From: Sulfuricurvum sp.
Lineage (GTDB): Bacteria; Campylobacterota; Campylobacteria; Campylobacterales; Sulfurimonadaceae
Reading direction: 5' to 3'
NCBI GenBank assembly: GCA_024637295.1
Contig: JAGXFL010000001.1
Location: 62,001-126,000, forward strand
DNA length: 64,000 bases
The notes beneath the pieces were generated by a model, which saw only the letters and a list, made by a program, of their open reading frames with translations, did not search any database and had not been told where the DNA came from. Below are positions 39,801 through 51,417 of this stretch, in pieces. Every line of letters begins with the position of its first letter. Position 1 is the stretch's first letter. The position numbers and the translations under genes are program-made.

Positions 39801-39876
39801 GGGTCAATAGTTCAATGGTTAGAGCCCACCGCTCATAACGGTGTTGTTGCAGGTTCAAGTCCTGCTTGACCCACCA
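39801..39876 (+). tRNA. Complete tRNA with CAU anticodon, carried by the island
   Basis: 76 nt with encoded CCA. Acceptor GGGTCAA pairs with TTGACCC; D arm AGTTCAATGGTTAGAGC; anticodon stem CACCG/CGGTG with loop CTCATAA (anticodon CAT at 39834-39836); T arm GCAGG TTCAAGT CCTGC. It differs from the reconstituted host copy at five of 76 positions, two of them a compensatory pair in the anticodon stem (28:42). CAU tRNAs are initiator, elongator Met, or Ile2 (lysidine-modified); a short D loop and loop CTCATAA fit Ile2 or elongator Met, and the sequence does not decide. The initiator is excluded by the Watson-Crick first acceptor pair. Confidence 0.92.
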
Positions 39877-39947
39877 CTTTTATCACTCAAATCAAACTTT
39901 TATTTTATCTCTCAAAAATTGATCTAAAATACTTTAATTTTTAGATG

Positions 39948-39968: not shown

Positions 39969-40160
39969 TTATGATCGCTTTTTAGCTTTTTGAATTTTAT
40001 TTCTCTCCAAAAAATCCACAATGTCCAATACTTTATAGACAATCGAAGGTCCGAATTTTGTGTAGGGTAGTTTTCCTTCACTGCGATAATTGGCAAGTGT
40101 TCCTTTGGAAAATCCAAATTTCACCATGACTTCATTGTCTGTTATGTAATCTTCAAGCAT
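39969..40160 (-). CDS. AlpA-like excisionase / MerR-type HTH protein
   Basis: 63-residue DNA-binding protein of the HTH_17 (excisionase/AlpA) type: DNEVMVKFGFSKGTLANYRSEGKLPYTKFG spans the helix-turn-helix and the wing. Such proteins direct excision or regulate integrase. It overlaps the repA-like gene by ATGA-type coupling (40153-40160) and its stop is 2 bp from the left arm-site repeats, fitting a role in recombination directionality. Confidence 0.8.
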   Translation of the reverse strand: MLEDYITDNEVMVKFGFSKGTLANYRSEGKLPYTKFGPSIVYKVLDIVDFLERNKIQKAKKRS

Positions 40161-41659: not shown

Positions 41660-42391
41660 ATGCAAATTGATACTAAATTGTTTTTATTACGTCTTAGAAT
41701 TGCCCTTAATATCAAAAATAATGTTGATCTTGCAAAAGTATTGGAAGTGCCTTATTCAACTCTGAATACATGGCTTACGCGTAATTCATTACCACTTGAA
41801 AATATTATTAGTAAGCCTATTTGTAAAAACTTATCCATAGATTGGCTTCTAGGCAAAGATGATAATGAGCCCATTAACTTTTCGAAATTACCGAGTTTTA
41901 TCGCTGCTATTGATATTGCAAGTGAAACAGAAGATGGCTTTTCAATTTTAAATTCACTATTTGATGGTTTCATAATTGAACAAATTATTCAAAAATTATT
42001 GGATGCGTATGTGAACAGCAAAAGAAATATGCCTAACAATATTATCACGAGGATGAAACGACTTCTTTTTAATGTGACAGAGGGAAGATTTTTGATGCTA
42101 CTGGATGAAATGCTTCATAAAATCGACTTCAAAAAGGGTGATGATGCACATGCTAAAATTCAAGAATTCATAAGTGGAGATTTTTTTCACCCATTTCTCT
42201 CAAAGCCAGCATTTAAAAAATCCGAAAAAGTTGCTTTTCAGGCTTGGGCAGAGGATTTGAGCAAAGAAGAAGCAGAATTTTTGCTTGAAAAATCAGAAGA
42301 AATACACGAAAAATTAAAGATACTAATCCCTAAAATATCCAAAAGGAATAGTGCGTTTGATGTTACCGTGATGAAAAAACTCACGTCATAA
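41660..42391 (+). CDS. CI-like helix-turn-helix regulator
   Basis: N-terminal helix-turn-helix of the phage CI-repressor type (VDLAKVLEVPYSTLNTWLTRNSLP, residues 19-42), followed by a helical C-terminal part without a visible protease (Ser-Lys) motif of LexA/CI-type repressors. 243 residues. It is divergent from repA and likely controls the excision/replication genes through the inverted repeat at 41543-41602. An alternative is a DUF-type regulator; the domain order is consistent with both. Confidence 0.72.
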   Translation: MQIDTKLFLLRLRIALNIKNNVDLAKVLEVPYSTLNTWLTRNSLPLENIISKPICKNLSIDWLLGKDDNEPINFSKLPSFIAAIDIASETEDGFSILNSLFDGFIIEQIIQKLLDAYVNSKRNMPNNIITRMKRLLFNVTEGRFLMLLDEMLHKIDFKKGDDAHAKIQEFISGDFFHPFLSKPAFKKSEKVAFQAWAEDLSKEEAEFLLEKSEEIHEKLKILIPKISKRNSAFDVTVMKKLTS

Positions 42392-42402: not shown

Positions 42403-42492
42403 TTAAAAGAATTTCTCAATCGCTTTTCTAAACGACGGGATAAAGAGAGCAAAAACAACAAATAAAATCCCTACAAGCAAAAATTCTATCAT
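42403..42492 (-). CDS. 29-aa membrane peptide coupled to the relaxase gene
   Basis: Too short for most gene finders. Starts at ATG with CAT 42490-42492, overlapping the relaxase stop as ATGA. Sequence MIEFLLVGILFVVFALFIP is one hydrophobic helix followed by SFRKAIEKFF. Role unknown; small hydrophobic peptides next to mobilisation genes can affect transfer or membrane attachment. Confidence 0.55.
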   Translation of the reverse strand: MIEFLLVGILFVVFALFIPSFRKAIEKFF

Positions 42493-43991
42493 CGTTCAAA
42501 TCCTTTTCCTCGATTTTCTTGTTGGCGTTCTAACTTTTCCCGCTCTTTTTGAGCGTTTAAAAGCTCCTCACGCTCTTTTTGTACTTCGCCTATGGATTTC
42601 CCCGTAAATTTGTTAAAAATGCTTTTAACTGCCTCTTTCATTCGTTCTTTGCCGTATTCTAATGCCTTGATAAGCCCGTTTTTCTCTTTGTGGATTTTTT
42701 GGTGCTCATTTTCTCGCTCTCTGACCTTTTGAATGAACACGTCCTTATCGAACACCTGCTTCGTGGTCGTGTAGATCAAGCCTTTTTCCTCCACGGCTGT
42801 GTAGGAGGCTTTTAGCATCTCGTCGATAGGGTCGATTTCTTTCCCGTTCTCGTCTTTTTTGATAAGCTCTTTTTCGCCTAATGGGTAGCTTATCGGCTTC
42901 GTGATCTCCTCGATCTCCTCAAAAATCTTGATAGGGTCGATTTTCGGGGCGTTCCCCTCTTTGAGCTGTGCTTGAAGCTCTTTGTATTTCGCTTCCATTT
43001 GAGCGTAATCCGCTCTCGTGGCTCCCTGCTCTTTGAGTTGCGCCCGTTCCTCTTTCTGCGCCTCCTTGAGGGCTTGTATCTCCTCTTTGAGGCTCTTGTT
43101 TTCTTTCTCGGAGAGTTCGAGGCGTTTGTTGAGGGTGTCCGTTTCAACGCCATTCCCAATGATCGCTCTCATCTCTTGGCGCATTTCCAACCGTTCCGCT
43201 ATTGGTAGGCTATCGTATTTTTCGCATAGCGATTGCTCCGATTTTATCCCCTTAGCAAGGGCTTTAATCTTTTCATTGCGTACCGCTTTGTGCTGTGTCT
43301 TGATCTGTTCGACTGGTGTACGTTTTTTGCTTCCTTTTTCGGGGTTGTAGTCAAGCCCCAACACCTTTGAAGCCGTCTTGATACGGTCGTTTAATTCGTT
43401 GTGCTTCATTCGTCCCGTTTTACCCGTTTGTAGGTCGAACATTGAGAACTTAACGTGGGCGTGTATGTTGTGTATCGGCTTGAAATCGTTGATGTCCACT
43501 TTTTCGCTGAACTCATGCACTTTGGGCTTATAGCTCGGTTTCATTTCAAGGGATTGATCTAGGGGGACGATGTACCAACCGTCCTCTTTTTGGAGTATGT
43601 CTTTTGTCGGGTAATAGGTCACGCCGTTTTTGTCCTCGAAGTGTCCCTCGTCTTTGTGGATGGATAGCTCGGTGATGTAGTGACCGCCGTATTTTTCGTT
43701 TAGCTGATTGAATACCTTTTGAACGTCGGCTTTGGTATGGTGATCGTCGAGGGAGAGTACCGTTTCTTTGATGAGTGCATCGATCTGTTTTTGTTGCATT
43801 TTTTGACTCGTGACCTCTTGATATTTGACCTTAGCCAGTTCAAGAAAATCACTGTCGGAGTGACGGAGATCGTAAACATTTTCCTCTCCATTTTTGGCAC
43901 CGATTAGATAGTCGGGAATATCATCCCTAGAGTTATGCTCACTCGAATGTGCGCTCGCTTTGAGAACGGAAAACGTCGCTGATTTTGCCAT
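42489..43991 (-). CDS. Relaxase/mobilisation protein (MobV-like)
   Basis: 500-residue mobilisation protein. The N-terminal 200 residues carry relaxase-type His motifs: HKDEGH at residues 112-117 and HNIHAH at 174-179, resembling the SVHxDE and HxH metal-site motifs of MobV/Pre relaxases. The rest is a long, charged, coiled-coil region (KENKSLKEEIQALKEAQKEERAQ) as in Mob proteins. The ATG 43991 has an AAGGAAAAG site; the frame extends 26 codons farther upstream but that part crosses the nested palindromes. Expected role: nicking at oriT, which is likely just upstream. A conjugation pore is not encoded. Confidence 0.68.
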   Translation of the reverse strand: MAKSATFSVLKASAHSSEHNSRDDIPDYLIGAKNGEENVYDLRHSDSDFLELAKVKYQEVTSQKMQQKQIDALIKETVLSLDDHHTKADVQKVFNQLNEKYGGHYITELSIHKDEGHFEDKNGVTYYPTKDILQKEDGWYIVPLDQSLEMKPSYKPKVHEFSEKVDINDFKPIHNIHAHVKFSMFDLQTGKTGRMKHNELNDRIKTASKVLGLDYNPEKGSKKRTPVEQIKTQHKAVRNEKIKALAKGIKSEQSLCEKYDSLPIAERLEMRQEMRAIIGNGVETDTLNKRLELSEKENKSLKEEIQALKEAQKEERAQLKEQGATRADYAQMEAKYKELQAQLKEGNAPKIDPIKIFEEIEEITKPISYPLGEKELIKKDENGKEIDPIDEMLKASYTAVEEKGLIYTTTKQVFDKDVFIQKVRERENEHQKIHKEKNGLIKALEYGKERMKEAVKSIFNKFTGKSIGEVQKEREELLNAQKEREKLERQQENRGKGFER

Positions 43992-44010: not shown

Positions 44011-44108
44011 TACCCTTGTGGTGCTTGAAAAACAACCGTACCATAAGGTGCGTAGTTGCAACTACGCACCTTAAAAGGTACTTGTTGCGAAATTATACCA
44101 CAAGGGTA
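44011..44108. other. Nested inverted repeats: candidate oriT
   Basis: A 30-bp perfect palindrome (44044-44073; TAAGGTGCGTAGTTG and its complement) is nested inside a 12-bp perfect inverted repeat (TACCCTTGTGGT at 44011-44022, ACCACAAGGGTA at 44097-44108). The pair flanks the mobilisation gene's upstream region, where oriT normally lies. No T-run follows, so a simple terminator is less likely. It could also be a regulatory structure of the relaxase transcript. Confidence 0.55.
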
Positions 44109-44139: not shown

Positions 44140-44262
44140 TTACTTTTTGAACTTATCGATAATCCAAAAAATCGGCATCAAAAGTGTCATTACGACTTTT
44201 AAAAGTAGGGGGTCGCCACCACCGATATGTATAGGTTCTTCATCTCTATTTTTGTTTATCAT
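44140..44262 (-). CDS. 40-aa small protein with one membrane segment
   Basis: Starts at CAT 44260-44262, overlapping the stop of the 90-residue gene by ATGA, and ends TAA at 44140. Sequence begins MINKNRDEEPIHIGGGDP, followed by a hydrophobic helix LLLKVVMTLLMPIFWII and a basic tail. Unknown function. Coupled translation supports that it is real. Confidence 0.55.
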   Translation of the reverse strand: MINKNRDEEPIHIGGGDPLLLKVVMTLLMPIFWIIDKFKK

Positions 44263-44531
44263 TTACTACCATCCAAAACAACAACCGTTTCCTTATCCTC
44301 TATTAGAATATAGGCGGTAACTGTCATTAGTATTTTGCCATATTTCTCTACTCGCTTAACTACAATATCATTCGGGTTGATACCACGTTTTTTGGCTTGT
44401 TTTTCTGTAATAAATTCAAAATTGATAAATTTTGGAGGAGTGATGTCGCCATCTTCGGTAATATAATGTACGTCTTTTATGAGTTCGGCACTTTTTCTAA
44501 TATCTGATACTTCTTTTAACCATGCTCTCAT
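44259..44531 (-). CDS. Hypothetical protein, 90 aa
   Basis: Soluble, with no recognised domain. The middle part reads FITEKQAKKRGINPNDIVVKRV and the end VTAYILIEDKETVVVL. The ribosome-binding site is weak. It ends with coupling to the 40-aa peptide gene at 44259-44262. Its neighbours suggest a mobilisation-accessory role, which is speculative. Confidence 0.55.
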   Translation of the reverse strand: MRAWLKEVSDIRKSAELIKDVHYITEDGDITPPKFINFEFITEKQAKKRGINPNDIVVKRVEKYGKILMTVTAYILIEDKETVVVLDGSK

Positions 44532-44604
44532 GTTGATTCAACCTTGTATTTAAATAGCTTTACACCTCAATTATACTTTTATGTCTGATTTTAAACTCGA
44601 TAGT

Positions 44605-44787
44605 CTATTTTTTAGGTTTTGTAATCCAAGTGTAGAGATCAAGCATACCTGCGACTGCAAATGCTATGATCCATAAAGAAGCTATAAAAATTGTGCTTAC
44701 TGCAAAATATGCAAATAAGCCACCACCTAAAAAAGCTAACATTTTTGATCCTATATTTTTGTTACCACGTTTTGAGGACTTTTTCAT
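44605..44787 (-). CDS. 60-aa membrane protein
   Basis: Two hydrophobic stretches (MLAFLGGGLFAYFAVSTIFIA and LWIIAFAVAGMLDLYTW) after a basic start MKKSSKRGNK. Overlaps the EexN-like gene by 26 bp. Unknown function; small membrane protein of a mobile element. Confidence 0.55.
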   Translation of the reverse strand: MKKSSKRGNKNIGSKMLAFLGGGLFAYFAVSTIFIASLWIIAFAVAGMLDLYTWITKPKK

Positions 44788-45583: not shown

Positions 45584-45643
45584 ATGGTTCAAATTAGAAA
45601 TTTCAAAATACAGTCATCTAAAAATTTTGGAATGTGTTTATGA
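45584..45643 (+). CDS. 19-aa leader peptide coupled to the protease gene
   Basis: Very strong ribosome-binding site (GGAGGGG) before ATG 45584; the peptide MVQIRNFKIQSSKNFGMCL ends at TGA 45641-45643, which overlaps the protease ATG at 45640 as ATGA. The gene itself has a poor ribosome-binding site, so its translation probably depends on the leader. Confidence 0.55.
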   Translation: MVQIRNFKIQSSKNFGMCL

Positions 45644-46758
45644 TTCAACCATCTGAAACAGTTGTTCATTTAACTATTTGCAGGGATGAAATAGAACTTG
45701 CTGTAGGTAGTGGTGTTTTTTACAAAAGAAATGGGAAAAGTTATATTGTTACTGCTTGGCATAATGTAGCAGGTAGACATACTGATACACTCCAAAGTCT
45801 TAGTAGCACTTTAGCTGTGCCCAATAAAGTGATTGCAAGTTTTTCACATCAAATTTTTCAGGGAGAATTTAAAGGATCTGTTAATAGAAGTATAACTTTG
45901 TCTTTGGAAGAAAATGGTCAAAAAACTTATTATGTGCATCCTCAAGGCTGGCCAAAAGTAGATGTTGTAACCATACCAATAGATTTAGATAAACAATATT
46001 TATCTGAAGGTTCGCTGCTTGATGGGGAAAAAATTAATATTCCAACTATTTTGAAAAATAATTCTACTATGGGTTTAAGCACAGATATTATCCATGTACA
46101 AGATATAGAATTTCAGTACAACGGTATTCAAGATTATTCTGATTATTTGTATGCAAGTGAAGATATATTTATTATCGGTTATCCAAAGGGCATAACTGAT
46201 CAAACAGGTCAACCTATTTGGAAACGAGCTACAGTGGCAACAAGCCCTCATCTTGGATGGGAAAAACAAGAACAATTTTTAGTTGATTGTGCTTCAAAAC
46301 AGGGAATGTCAGGTGCCCCCGCATTTTTCTATAATCTTAAAGGGCATATTAATTTAGGTCACACAAATGTAATTACCAGTTCACCAATAACGATTTTTCA
46401 TGGAATCTATGTAGGAAGAATAGGTGGTACATCTGAATTTGAAGCACAAATAGGAAGAATCTGGAAAAGAAAAGTTATTGATGAAATTATTGATAATGCT
46501 CAATTTGATTTTTTATCGGATGAATTGATTCTTCCAGATTCTGAAATATTAGAGATCATTCAGAAACAATGGCCTGATGAAAAAGAAAAATATGCAGAAA
46601 GTATATTAAAAGAAAATAGTATGTTGTCTAAAGTTCTCCTATATACTGTAATGAAGGAAATTAATGGCAGAGCTGATTATCAAGATGTGGAAAAGCAGAT
46701 AATACAATTTGCTAAAAATTTAAACTTTGGGACAGAAAACAAAACGAGAATAGGCTGA
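45640..46758 (+). CDS. Trypsin-like serine protease
   Basis: 372-residue protease with a trypsin-like domain and triad His41 (TAWHN), Asp108 (KVDVV) and Ser224 (QGMSGAPAF). The oxyanion-type GMSGAP is typical of stress or defence-linked trypsin-like proteins. The C-terminal 90 residues are helical and unassigned (WPDEKEKYAESILKEN). No signal peptide, so it is cytosolic. In defence islands such proteases work with sensor partners; here the neighbours are the CoiA-like and unknown genes. ATG 45640 is used, supported by the leader overlap and codon pattern; a GTG at 45634 is an alternative. Confidence 0.82.
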   Translation: MIQPSETVVHLTICRDEIELAVGSGVFYKRNGKSYIVTAWHNVAGRHTDTLQSLSSTLAVPNKVIASFSHQIFQGEFKGSVNRSITLSLEENGQKTYYVHPQGWPKVDVVTIPIDLDKQYLSEGSLLDGEKINIPTILKNNSTMGLSTDIIHVQDIEFQYNGIQDYSDYLYASEDIFIIGYPKGITDQTGQPIWKRATVATSPHLGWEKQEQFLVDCASKQGMSGAPAFFYNLKGHINLGHTNVITSSPITIFHGIYVGRIGGTSEFEAQIGRIWKRKVIDEIIDNAQFDFLSDELILPDSEILEIIQKQWPDEKEKYAESILKENSMLSKVLLYTVMKEINGRADYQDVEKQIIQFAKNLNFGTENKTRIG

Positions 46759-46806
46759 GTTGATAGTTAGCACATTTGAAAATTTTGTTGCATAAAGAAA
46801 AATATT

Positions 46807-47163
46807 ATGAAGTATCACTTCACGAATCATGCCAAACAACGACGGGTGAATCATACACCAAAAAGTGATGAAGAACTTCTAGCAATTATGAAAATGCTTG
46901 ATGATTACTTTGACTTTAAAACGCTTGATGATGGTAAATATAAAATTTATAAGGGCGGTGCAACCGCTATTTTCAACAAAAAAAACAATTCTATTGTGCT
47001 GATTACCATTAGGGGCTTTAAAAAAATAAGCCTTACGGAGGGTAAGCCAATCATCATCCGTCCGATTACCGCAGAAGAAGAAGCGATAAAAATGGAGAAG
47101 AAAGCCAAAAAGGAGCAAGCCAAACGCATTGCCTCCTTATCCAACATGAAAGTTTTTTTATGA
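46807..47163 (+). CDS. Hypothetical protein, DUF4258/toxin-like, 118 aa
   Basis: The N-terminal part (YHFTNHAKQRRVNHTPKSDEELLAIM) has a pattern of His/Arg seen in small toxin-like proteins that bind RNA, but no assignment is certain. The C-terminus is Lys/Glu-rich. The stop overlaps the CoiA-like gene as ATGA-type (47160-47163), so the two are co-translated. I infer only that they belong to one operon. Confidence 0.5.
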   Translation: MKYHFTNHAKQRRVNHTPKSDEELLAIMKMLDDYFDFKTLDDGKYKIYKGGATAIFNKKNNSIVLITIRGFKKISLTEGKPIIIRPITAEEEAIKMEKKAKKEQAKRIASLSNMKVFL

Positions 47164-48194
47164 CTATTCCTTTTGGATACAAAAAAGAGACGGATGAGTA
47201 TGTTGATATTGATGAAGTAGAAAATGGGTTAGCGTGTAATTGTATTTGTCCCTCTTGTGGTATGAGACTCGAAGCTAGACATGGTAATGAACGGGAACAT
47301 CATTTTAAACACCATGAAAAAGCCGAGACAGAATGTAGTTATTCATTTTGGGTGGCTGTGCGATCAATGGCTAAACAAATCCTCGAACGAAGTGTTTCTC
47401 TAAATGTAGATACTATGCCATTTTTTACAAAAATCCCATTTAAAAATCAATGGGTTACACTCGATATTTTTGCAAAAAATCTAAGACAAAAAAATCACGG
47501 GTTCGATTTTGAACTGCTTACACCGATAGGGTTCATTTATATCTATTTCGTAACTCTTGAAGATGCAAGTGCAGGAAGGTATCGATCTCATTTTAAGAAT
47601 AAGCCAAAATATTTTACATCGCAACTGATCCTAGAAATCGATTTAACGAGCCTAATATCAGTCAAAAATAATACTAAAAGCCGTTTAGAAAAACTGATTT
47701 TAGAGGAGCTTGATTCAAAAGAGTGGGTCACAGTATCTCATTCTTACGTCTTAAAAAAGAAAGCAAAAATTGATAATCACCGACTGAGTAAAAATATAGT
47801 TACCAATAATTCTCAAGATGAAGATGATGAATTATCGGATTATGATAAGCCTTATGTTGTAAATAAATCATTACTTGGTGTTTTTGGGCTAGATGAAACT
47901 AATCTAAATAGGATGAGTCTTGGAGTAGTAAACAGAATGATTCAGTTTTATCAGTATCATATTAAAAGACATCAGAGAAAAAAAAGTTCAAGATGGTTTT
48001 ATGTACTTGAAAAAGGTTTGAACCTTTACTTCATTAATTATGAGTATGAATTTTACGGTGTTGCGAAGTTGGATCAATTCTACATATATCAAGTGATTAA
48101 TGATGTTCCTATTTTTATCAGTAAAGTTGAGAATTTTGAAGAGCTGAGAAATGAGATAGATAAATATTTTTGTGAGCGGGAGAATATTTTTTAA
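47160..48194 (+). CDS. CoiA-like protein with Cys/His N-terminal domain
   Basis: N-terminal Cys-Cys/His motif (CNCICPSCGMRLEARHGNER followed by HHFKHH, residues 24-55) resembles the zinc-finger-like start of competence protein CoiA and related nuclease-associated proteins. The middle segment (VTLDIFAKNLRQKNHGFDFEL) may be a restriction-endonuclease-like fold, as in CoiA. The C-terminal 150 residues are unassigned. Co-translated with the preceding gene. Defence or DNA-processing role is inferred. Confidence 0.6.
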   Translation: MTIPFGYKKETDEYVDIDEVENGLACNCICPSCGMRLEARHGNEREHHFKHHEKAETECSYSFWVAVRSMAKQILERSVSLNVDTMPFFTKIPFKNQWVTLDIFAKNLRQKNHGFDFELLTPIGFIYIYFVTLEDASAGRYRSHFKNKPKYFTSQLILEIDLTSLISVKNNTKSRLEKLILEELDSKEWVTVSHSYVLKKKAKIDNHRLSKNIVTNNSQDEDDELSDYDKPYVVNKSLLGVFGLDETNLNRMSLGVVNRMIQFYQYHIKRHQRKKSSRWFYVLEKGLNLYFINYEYEFYGVAKLDQFYIYQVINDVPIFISKVENFEELRNEIDKYFCERENIF

Positions 48195-48255
48195 TCACGC
48201 ATTTATAGATTTTGGTGTATACTACTTTTCAGAATTGATCACTGCGTAGCGGGGG

Positions 48256-48996
48256 TCAATTATCCTTCGGTAATACTACTAATCCATGTCCCCCAACTTT
48301 TCCATTTTTATCTTTACGAAATTTTTGTTCAATAATTTCAAAATCTTTATTGGTTTTTTTACCTATGATGTGCCGACCGATGGGAGAAACCACCAAATCT
48401 GCGAGTTGGAGACCGTTTAGATTTTCTTTTTTATCTTTTAGGATTAACCCACCCGAAATACGATCTTCGATCTCAGCACCTTTTAGAAAACGGGTTCCTT
48501 TGATTTTGAGCTGTAACCATGAAAGTTCAAGTTCATGGTCAAGGGTTCTATCCCGCTTTTCAGCGATAACAAGCCCTTTTTTCTCATCTGATTTAATCTC
48601 CATATAAAATCGTTCGACAAGAACATTTAGTCCAAGCATATAGGGATCAATAGCGGCATAATCGTATTTGGCAATATGTTCTTTTTTCTTAATCACGCAC
48701 GCAACAACTTTAAAATCAAGAGTAGCGATGAGATGATTCAATTTCTCATAGAAATTCTCACGAAACTCTTTTTCTTTTAGCCGTTCAAAGCCATTTTTAT
48801 TGCGTGTGATGTCAGCAGTATGGAGAATAATATCCGTTGTACCGAATATCTCTTTTTTGAACTGATCTATCCGTTCATTGAGATTTTCGAGATTATCACG
48901 ATCAACAATTACCCCACCTAAAACGAATACGGGGTATTGATCATCAATTTTGGTAAGGTTATGATCACCAGACTCATCCAAAAAGAGTATTTTCAT
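48256..48996 (-). CDS. DUF3800 protein (RNase H-fold)
   Basis: Starts MKILFLDESGDHNL, the family signature with catalytic-looking Asp/Glu, and continues VFVLGGVIVDRDNLENL. 246 residues. DUF3800 proteins are common in mobile and defence-linked loci and are predicted to have an RNase H-like fold; the activity is not known. It faces the CoiA-like gene tail to tail with a 61-bp gap. Confidence 0.8.
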   Translation of the reverse strand: MKILFLDESGDHNLTKIDDQYPVFVLGGVIVDRDNLENLNERIDQFKKEIFGTTDIILHTADITRNKNGFERLKEKEFRENFYEKLNHLIATLDFKVVACVIKKKEHIAKYDYAAIDPYMLGLNVLVERFYMEIKSDEKKGLVIAEKRDRTLDHELELSWLQLKIKGTRFLKGAEIEDRISGGLILKDKKENLNGLQLADLVVSPIGRHIIGKKTNKDFEIIEQKFRKDKNGKVGGHGLVVLPKDN

Positions 48997-50119: not shown

Positions 50120-51187
50120 TTATCGTTTTGTAGTTGCGATAGTATCAATCATTTCGGAAGCTATCTTGCTTCCGATAGTGTAATTCAATGAAAGGTACTT
50201 AGTTATCGTGTTGGGATCGTTGTGTCCTAGCGCACCGCTCAGGTGGATCGATTCAACCCCTCGCTCTGCCATCGCCGATACAATTAAATTTCTTGTGTAA
50301 TGAAGTGTAAAGTGATAGCCAGTTTTTTCCCTGATTTTCAAAGTTTGTTTATAGATAGAGTTCATCCGCTTTCCAGTTCTTTTTGACGGAAATAATAACC
50401 CCTCAGATGGCATAAATTCCATTATTGCGGCTTTTACTTCATGATCTAGGTACATCTTTTGATCTTCTTGGTTCTTTGTATCTCGTAAAATATAATAGTT
50501 TTGATCCAATATGACATCTTCGACCCTCAAATCAAATATCTCACCACGTCGTCGCCCTTGGAGAGCAAGTAAAAAAAATGCACGATAGAAGGGGTTATTA
50601 GCGTAAAGCTCAATAATCGCGTCATGGACTATTTTTACTTGCTTTGAAGCATCAGAAACTATTTTTTTTGTTTTTGGAACTTTAATATGAACATCTTCAC
50701 ATGGATTGTAAAACATAACACGATTGGCTCTTGCTATACGGAATGCAGGCGATAAAATTTCTACAACTTGTTTTGCTGTTTTTGGAGCCGCACCATTTTT
50801 GATGAGATTGTCTACTATTTTTTGGATTTGATCGGGAATAATGGTTGCAATTTTTTTGTTTCCGAGTTCTCTTTGGACATTACGCTTGTAATATGATTTT
50901 CGATTTTTTTTATAGTCACCTTCGTCTAAAGTTTCAAAATATTTTTCCACCATGTCATCTACTGTAGCATCAACACTAATGCCGGCTTCAACTTTATTTT
51001 TTATTTCTAGGAATTCTCTTTGAGCTATTGATATGAGATCACGTTTGCCTAAATCTTTTTCTGATAGGTCTATAATGCCACGGTATTGCTTTTTCTCAAA
51101 CTCAAATCGATACCAAAAACGGGTGAAATTATGATTGGCTTTTAAGTTTTTCATTACTACATTGTCAAACTGCTCTTTTGGAGGCAT
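50120..51187 (-). CDS. int: Tyrosine-recombinase integrase of the island
   Basis: Site-specific recombinase that inserts and excises the island. Catalytic residues are visible in the 355-residue form: Arg214 in GRRRGEIF, His296 and Arg299 in LHYTRN, His322 in ALGHND and Tyr331 in ITKYLS. The N-terminal 180 residues hold the arm-binding and core-binding parts. ATG 51187 is preceded by AAAGGATT; a longer frame starts at 51241 and passes through the right arm repeats. The gene points away from the adjacent right end. Confidence 0.92.
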   Translation of the reverse strand: MPPKEQFDNVVMKNLKANHNFTRFWYRFEFEKKQYRGIIDLSEKDLGKRDLISIAQREFLEIKNKVEAGISVDATVDDMVEKYFETLDEGDYKKNRKSYYKRNVQRELGNKKIATIIPDQIQKIVDNLIKNGAAPKTAKQVVEILSPAFRIARANRVMFYNPCEDVHIKVPKTKKIVSDASKQVKIVHDAIIELYANNPFYRAFFLLALQGRRRGEIFDLRVEDVILDQNYYILRDTKNQEDQKMYLDHEVKAAIMEFMPSEGLLFPSKRTGKRMNSIYKQTLKIREKTGYHFTLHYTRNLIVSAMAERGVESIHLSGALGHNDPNTITKYLSLNYTIGSKIASEMIDTIATTKR

Positions 51188-51200
51188 AGGAATCCTTTTT

Positions 51201-51220
51201 GGTGACGGGTAAGGTGACGG
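51201..51220 (+). repeat. Right paired GGTGACGG repeats (candidate integrase arm sites)
   Basis: GGTGACGG at 51201-51208 and 51213-51220, 12-bp period, just upstream of the integrase start and 107 bp inside the right core. Same sequence, spacing and orientation as the left pair (39948-39967). Confidence 0.6.
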
Positions 51221-51326
51221 CTTAGTAATGAATGATAGCATATTTTAATTAACTAGTATGAGATTGTACGCCCTTTTTATGGACTATACTGAGGGGATTA
51301 AATTGAGAATTATAATAGTAAAATTA

Positions 51327-51337
51327 GCTCATAACGG
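51327..51337 (+). repeat. attR core, 11 bp
   Basis: GCTCATAACGG identical to the left core 39716-39726; start of the 3' part of the split tRNA. Confidence 0.85.
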
Positions 51338-51372
51338 AGTTGTCGCAGGTTCAAATCCTGCTTGACCCACCA
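51327..51372 (+). pseudogene. 3' half of the CAU tRNA gene split by the island
   Basis: Begins with the 11-bp core and continues with AGTTGTCGCAGG, T arm GCAGG TTCAAAT CCTGC, acceptor 3' strand TTGACCC and ACCA. Its anticodon 3' strand is CGGAG, complementary to the CTCCG of the 5' half (39711-39715) and not to the CACCG of the island tRNA. Promoterless here. Confidence 0.88.
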
Positions 51373-51417
51373 CAATCTTCTTCTCCAATTATTAACTCAA
51401 TGTTATTCATTACACTA

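Follow-up and report, generated by a model that had tools for sequence, protein, structure and literature searches.

Organization of the locus

The window is a 64,000-nt stretch of Sulfuricurvum sp. (GCA_024637295.1, contig JAGXFL010000001.1, positions 62,001 to 126,000, forward strand), and all coordinates are given within it. The features are listed by coordinates, strand, identity and basis of assignment.

39831-39877, unstranded: attachment repeat at the 3' end of tRNA-Met (39801-39876); 47-bp near-repeat
39969-40160, minus: small HTH protein, probable excisionase; PF12728
40153-41388, minus: RepA-like AAA_25 ATPase/helicase; PF13481, 1.6e-14
41660-42391, plus: CI-type repressor; PF07022
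42489-43991, minus: divergent MOBV-type relaxase, 500 aa, coiled-coil C terminus; profile-profile comparison, predicted fold, alignment
44011-44022, unstranded: outer arm on the relaxase side, ACCACAAGGGTA (coding strand), core CRCAAG; perfect 12-bp inverted repeat
44033-44042, plus: middle layer, mirror half-site copy, CAACCGTACC (plus strand); imperfect copy, folding
44044-44073, unstranded: central 30-bp zero-loop palindrome, TAAGGTGCGTAGTTG/CAACTACGCACCTTA, two 15-nt arms; repeat search, symmetric substitutions in relatives
44077-44087, minus: middle layer, 5' half-site copy, CAACAAGTACC (coding strand); imperfect copy, folding
44092-44100, minus: extended -10, TGGTATAAT, which overlaps the outer arm and probably belongs to the relaxase promoter; sequence, family motif count
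44097-44108, unstranded: outer arm on the promoter side, TACCCTTGTGGT (coding strand), core CTTGYG; perfect 12-bp inverted repeat
50120-51241, minus: tyrosine integrase; PF00589, 4.3e-12
51327-51373, unstranded: attachment repeat at the far end of the element; 47-bp near-repeat

The two copies of the 47-bp near-repeat differ at 3 positions by eye, and the last 17 bp of tRNA-Met recur identically at 51356-51372. Judged from its genes and repeats, the element is an integrative mobilizable element of ~11.5 kb in tRNA-Met, with an integrase, attachment repeats, a relaxase and a candidate origin of transfer (oriT) and with no mating pore of its own. The first-pass annotation had described it as free of mating-pore genes, which holds as far as tested: VirB4 (PF03135), AAA_10 (PF12846) and VirD4 (PF02534) have no match in the whole 2.17-Mb assembly, and a helper would therefore have to come from elsewhere. 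The cargo at 45634-48996 includes a trypsin-like protein with similarity to PDC-S45, a candidate defence protein of PADLOC (E 1e-20), together with a CoiA-N-like protein and a DUF3800 protein, and is possibly a defence module. Small unknown ORFs are placed behind the candidate oriT at 44259-44787 (e.g. 44259-44531, minus strand), one of which is perhaps a relaxosome accessory protein. A metagenome-assembled genome of Sulfurimonas sp. STA_8, from another genus of the same family, carries a relaxase 94% identical to that of the window within ~5 kb of DNA that is 86-92% identical, consistent with recent horizontal movement of the element.

The nested repeats, reported in the first pass as a 30-bp palindrome inside a perfect 12-bp inverted repeat, are recovered by a repeat search exactly as claimed, and a third, imperfect layer lies between the two. 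The palindrome lies 52 bp from the relaxase start codon, an ATG at 43991. No further palindrome with arms of at least 11 and a spacer of at most 12 occurs elsewhere in the 64-kb window, and BLAST finds no second copy of the site in its own genome, the extra matches being the palindrome against itself. Folding of the ~100-nt region as single-stranded DNA gives z = -8.3 and -7.9 for the two strands, with none of 200 shuffles equally stable. The half-site copy at 44077-44087 can pair with the palindrome's 5' half and so form a hairpin resembling IR1/IR3 of pMV158, with a 4-nt loop and a 7-nt tail to the dyad. Since the array is mirrored, an identical hairpin and tail would be possible on the opposite strand, through the copy at 44033-44042. 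In the window taken alone the evidence for the half-site copies is weak, with p values of 0.07 and 0.34 (the latter for 44033-44042); the case for them rests on the family.

The relaxase beside the site

The predicted fold of the neighboring gene product matches that of MobM, although this is not apparent from standard searches. Pfam and NCBIfam profile searches with the product of 42489-43991 match no relaxase family, and a sequence-only search of the PDB gives no relaxase match, the weak matches being coiled coils of the C-terminal part. Recognition by a curated relaxase profile is a criterion of detection rather than of mechanism. Comparison of the family profile with a profile built from MobM and five plasmid relatives, mostly from Bacteroidetes, gives a probability of 100 and an E-value of 5.5e-40 with all catalytic positions in register. 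By this alignment the predicted catalytic residues H19 and R22 correspond to H22 and R25 of MobM, H112/D114/E115 to H126/D128/E129 and H177/H179 to H133/H135. Motif I of MOBV, HNxR, is present as H19-N-S-R22, aligning H19 with the MobM nucleophile H22, and the HxDE...HxH metal-binding pattern of MOBV is likewise present. Among 27 relatives R22, D89, H112, D114, E115, G116, H177 and H179 are invariant, and H19 is found in at least 90%.

The AlphaFold model of residues 1-270 has a pLDDT of 87. Its six best structural matches in the PDB are all MobM (Z 10.9-11.7, 3.0-3.7 Å over 147-170 residues), followed by MobA of R1162 (Z 9.2) and the TraI/TrwC relaxases (6-7); the Foldseek E-values for MobM are only ~1e-3, though the fold match is clear. 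The protein has an insertion of ~60 residues between HxDEG and HxH. The relaxase-like gene of the first-pass annotation is thus borne out as MOBV-type by profile-profile comparison, predicted fold and aligned catalytic residues, and its assignment as a divergent MOBV relaxase is well supported as a match at the level of the fold.

Relatives of the relaxase are present in 27 of 397 Campylobacterota genomes and also on small Aliarcobacter and Campylobacter plasmids. The Campylobacterota plasmids examined that carry a relative are mostly typed as non-mobilizable by MOB-suite, and most of them also carry a candidate oriT. Two intermediates used as tblastn queries lead to Bacteroidetes proteins named mobilization or "NBU/pMV158-type" proteins, among them one on a plasmid typed MOBV and two scoring above the Pfam Relaxase cut-off. 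A phage collection contains no relative, and a search of IMG/VR returns one remote relative.

Conservation of the nested repeats

The loci of relatives were collected with the window relaxase as query, and one rule was applied to all 47, requiring arms of at least 10 within 1.3 kb on either side of the HxDEG codon. Zero-loop palindromes are found upstream of the relaxase gene in 27 of the 47 and downstream in none. The first-pass annotation had proposed looking for similar structures beside related Mob proteins and had named their absence from relatives as evidence against an oriT; nested repeats do recur upstream of the relatives, with symmetric substitutions. The palindromes on unrelated replicons often differ in sequence (for example GGTGCTATGTTG|CAACATAGCACC, GGTATGTAGTTTG|CAAACTACATACC and TAATAAAGGATAGTGC|GCACTATCCTTTATTA), and they include a 38-mer and a 44-mer. 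The family contains 17 distinct arms, every one perfectly symmetric. In an alignment of the closest eight loci built without regard to structure, three of the 12 pairs vary, each of them on both sides, and 100% of the cells pair. Change on both sides occurs in 12 cells compared with 5.6 in shuffled alignments, and the observed pairing and covariation score are reached in none of 500 shuffles. This covariation across relatives shows the symmetry of the palindrome to be under selection.

The zero-loop palindrome is not universal, since 20 of the 47 loci are without one, including about eight Aliarcobacter-type chromosomal genes. Some of these loci are contig ends and others (L014-L021) seem truly different. 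The latter form a chromosomal clade within one genus, with proteins of ~340 aa having HTQR/HINR in place of HNxR, and two of them share a spaced 13-bp repeat ~150 bp upstream. In the more distant relatives L028 and L040 a palindrome with one base at its center, CGGTATCCATAATGGATACCG, is located ~95 bp upstream. Two relaxase relatives look broken beside an intact palindrome, one with a split frame (L008, 2075-2925, AB-1166-LD) and one a chromosomal remnant with an in-frame stop (L038, 1498-1764); their palindromes could be served in trans. In four loci on Campylobacter and Helicobacter plasmids (L047, L048, L059 and L060) a YafQ/RelE-type toxin gene and a small preceding gene are placed between palindrome and relaxase, and the oriT, the toxin-antitoxin genes and mob seemingly make up a single unit there.

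The outer layers are conserved as well. Among 30 loci chosen for their palindrome, many of them related, CTTGYG lies to the left of it in 28 and CRCAAG to the right in 23, compared with 0.6 and 0.7 in shuffles, and the cores are found in reverse orientation in none of the 30. The palindrome also has half-site copies on either flank, with a Fisher combined p of ~1e-15 per side that is uncorrected for relatedness; these copies are often one middle base short, which would leave a one-base bulge. The pattern GGTGCNNNGTTGCAACNNNGCACC occurs in four of the 397 Campylobacterota genomes, always 5' of a relaxase relative, and a DNA search of a plasmid collection for copies of the candidate oriT returns only pABRW13, which itself carries a relaxase relative. 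Extended -10 motifs (TGnTATAAT) that overlap or adjoin the site are present in 13 of the 30 loci, compared with 0.2 in shuffles, and they lie to the left of the palindrome in seven and to the right in six. At the window locus a -35/-10 scan calls no promoter at 44092-44100.

Candidate origin of transfer and comparison with known systems

In pMV158 the IR1/IR3 hairpin is bound by MobM, and 8 nt separate its 3' side from the nick at G|T, which lies within a further repeat, IR2; oriT and the mob promoter overlap, and MobM is a repressor of its own gene (PMC5863519). For each locus the 45-nt segment ending at the dyad was folded with its last seven nucleotides held unpaired, so that a tail of at least 7 nt is imposed. 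In most loci the result is a short stem with a loop of 3-5 nt and a tail of 7-10 nt that reaches the dyad, on the coding and the opposite strand alike, and pMV158 folded by the same procedure as a control gives an 8-nt tail. Folds of single loci are mostly not significant, and it is the repeated geometry, among related loci, that carries the argument. The half-sites end at the dyad in TAGTTTG|, TAGTGAG|, TAGTTG| or TAATTTG|, compared with TAGTGTG|T in pMV158. On this comparison the palindrome would be the equivalent of IR2 with the nick likeliest at the dyad; nic probably lies between 44058 and 44059, 5'-GTAGTTG|CAACTAC-3' on either strand. Relative to this predicted nic the geometry is that of a pMV158-type oriT, a hairpin ~8 nt 5' of nic and a repeat spanning it.

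The site is very probably the oriT of the integrative mobilizable element in tRNA-Met, recognized by the adjacent MOBV-type relaxase. The first-pass proposal of a candidate oriT is supported by this neighbor and by the recurrence of the nested repeats upstream of its relatives on unrelated replicons. Under negative supercoiling the nested repeats would extrude a hairpin of the pMV158 kind, in which the 5' half-site copy pairs with the 5' half of the palindrome, leaving a 4-nt loop and a 7-8-nt tail. The relaxase would bind this hairpin, His19 would cut the coding strand at the center of the palindrome (TTG|CAA), and the relaxase would then pilot the cut strand into the mating pore of a helper element. 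As a duplex the palindrome may double as an operator, since the site and the probable relaxase promoter would overlap.

Asymmetry is the rule in transfer origins and is taken to determine which strand is nicked and in which direction transfer proceeds. The symmetric site offers no obvious choice of strand, something that a transfer origin would ordinarily require, and this counts against the oriT reading. Nicking of either strand is conceivable because both strands show the same hairpin, tail and nick sequence at a single dyad. It is a tentative possibility that the relaxase of such two-fold symmetric origins could nick either strand, the element leaving in either direction or being resolved or recombined at the site, with the choice of strand set by the asymmetric promoter or the outer arms.

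That the palindrome is mainly an operator, through which a dimeric autorepressor (the relaxase or an accessory protein) controls the mob operon while the true nick lies elsewhere, appears unlikely. Extended -10 motifs that overlap or adjoin the site would suit an operator, as would the position of the palindrome before the first gene of the operon where toxin-antitoxin genes precede mob. There are also precedents in MobM, a dimer that acts at oriT as a repressor of its own gene (PMC5863519), and in MobC of RA3, whose binding site in the mobC promoter is an imperfect palindrome (PMC4175270). However, the occurrence of the -10 on the left in seven loci and on the right in six is odd for an operator, no shared accessory regulator is seen beside the relaxases, and the flanking half-site copies, the hairpin-plus-tail geometry and the conserved outer arms are left unexplained. 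An operator role is probably true in part, as in pMV158.

That the hairpin acts as RNA, as a terminator or attenuator within the relaxase mRNA leader, is very improbable. Here and in the Aliarcobacter plasmids the palindrome does separate the -10 from the gene, and the middle stem is followed by a short run of T (GTTGTTTTT), but many relatives are without a T run, and in six the -10 is downstream of the palindrome, which is therefore probably not transcribed with the gene. The palindrome would be part of the mRNA leader in some relatives but precede the probable transcript in others, which argues for a function as DNA over RNA, and an RNA hairpin would need neither exact zero-loop symmetry nor symmetric flanks. 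A terminator, which the first pass had named as the reading that would displace oriT, is not supported: no terminator is called in the region, and the reading was rejected with the T run and transcript position varying among relatives. Least probable of all is a site for another DNA-processing enzyme, since although nested palindromes are known at sites of dimer resolution, single-strand replication origins and sites of the telomere-resolvase type, the partner that stays constant among plasmids and chromosomal islands is the relaxase rather than a resolvase or a replication protein, and the close pattern is found only next to relaxase relatives.

With the oriT reading preferred, origins across the phylum with an exactly palindromic nick region, as predicted here, would make strand choice directly testable. 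A candidate relaxase/oriT family overlooked by plasmid-typing software is exposed in Campylobacter, Helicobacter, Aliarcobacter and Sulfurimonas relatives, and a zero-loop palindrome between CTTGYG and CRCAAG may serve as a search key for mobilizable elements in Campylobacterota. No paper on a palindromic oriT in Campylobacterota was found among the open-licence papers searched, which is weak evidence of novelty.

Helicobacter pylori tfs4 VirD2 resembles the present system in being a relaxase with an adjacent oriT in a Campylobacterota genomic island. Its nick sequence, ATCCTG, is of the MOBP type and has an ordinary spaced inverted repeat next to it, and the enzyme is described as having a tyrosine in motif I (PMC3772185); the differences in nick sequence and motif I rule it out as the nearest model. 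The nearest annotated relatives, reached by tblastn from the Campylobacterota intermediates, are the Bacteroidetes "NBU/pMV158-type" mobilization proteins (e.g. pBFO17_2), which have the HNxR, HxDEG and HxH motifs in common with the family. The five Bacteroidetes loci examined (L054-L058) differ in having no zero-loop palindrome near mob.

The closest likeness is to the pMV158 oriT and MobM (MOBV1), with overlapping inverted repeats, a hairpin 5' of the predicted nic and a second repeat across it. The 4-nt loop, bulged right arm and 8-nt tail of pMV158 IR1/IR3 have a counterpart here, the one-base bulge of the family's flanking copies being reminiscent of the three-base bulge in IR3-R, and in both systems the left arm is directly repeated in the right arm of IR2 or its equivalent. 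The pMV158 site overlaps the mob promoter, as the present site may do as well, and the nick sequence TAGTGTG|T compares with a predicted TAGTTG|C here. The catalytic histidine and metal ligands can be aligned with those of MobM, from which the relaxase differs in its insertion between HxDEG and HxH and in being unmatched by the Pfam and NCBIfam relaxase models. The center of pMV158 IR2 is unpaired, whereas the center here is itself palindromic and the site is therefore without a loop; it has, in addition, a mirror copy of the half-site and an outer repeat that is conserved (CTTGYG...CRCAAG). At the level of sequence, it is this palindromic center of the IR2 equivalent, together with the mirrored half-site copy and the outer arm, that is new compared with pMV158, and the three-layer symmetry recurring before relaxase relatives across the phylum marks a putative family of transfer start sites.
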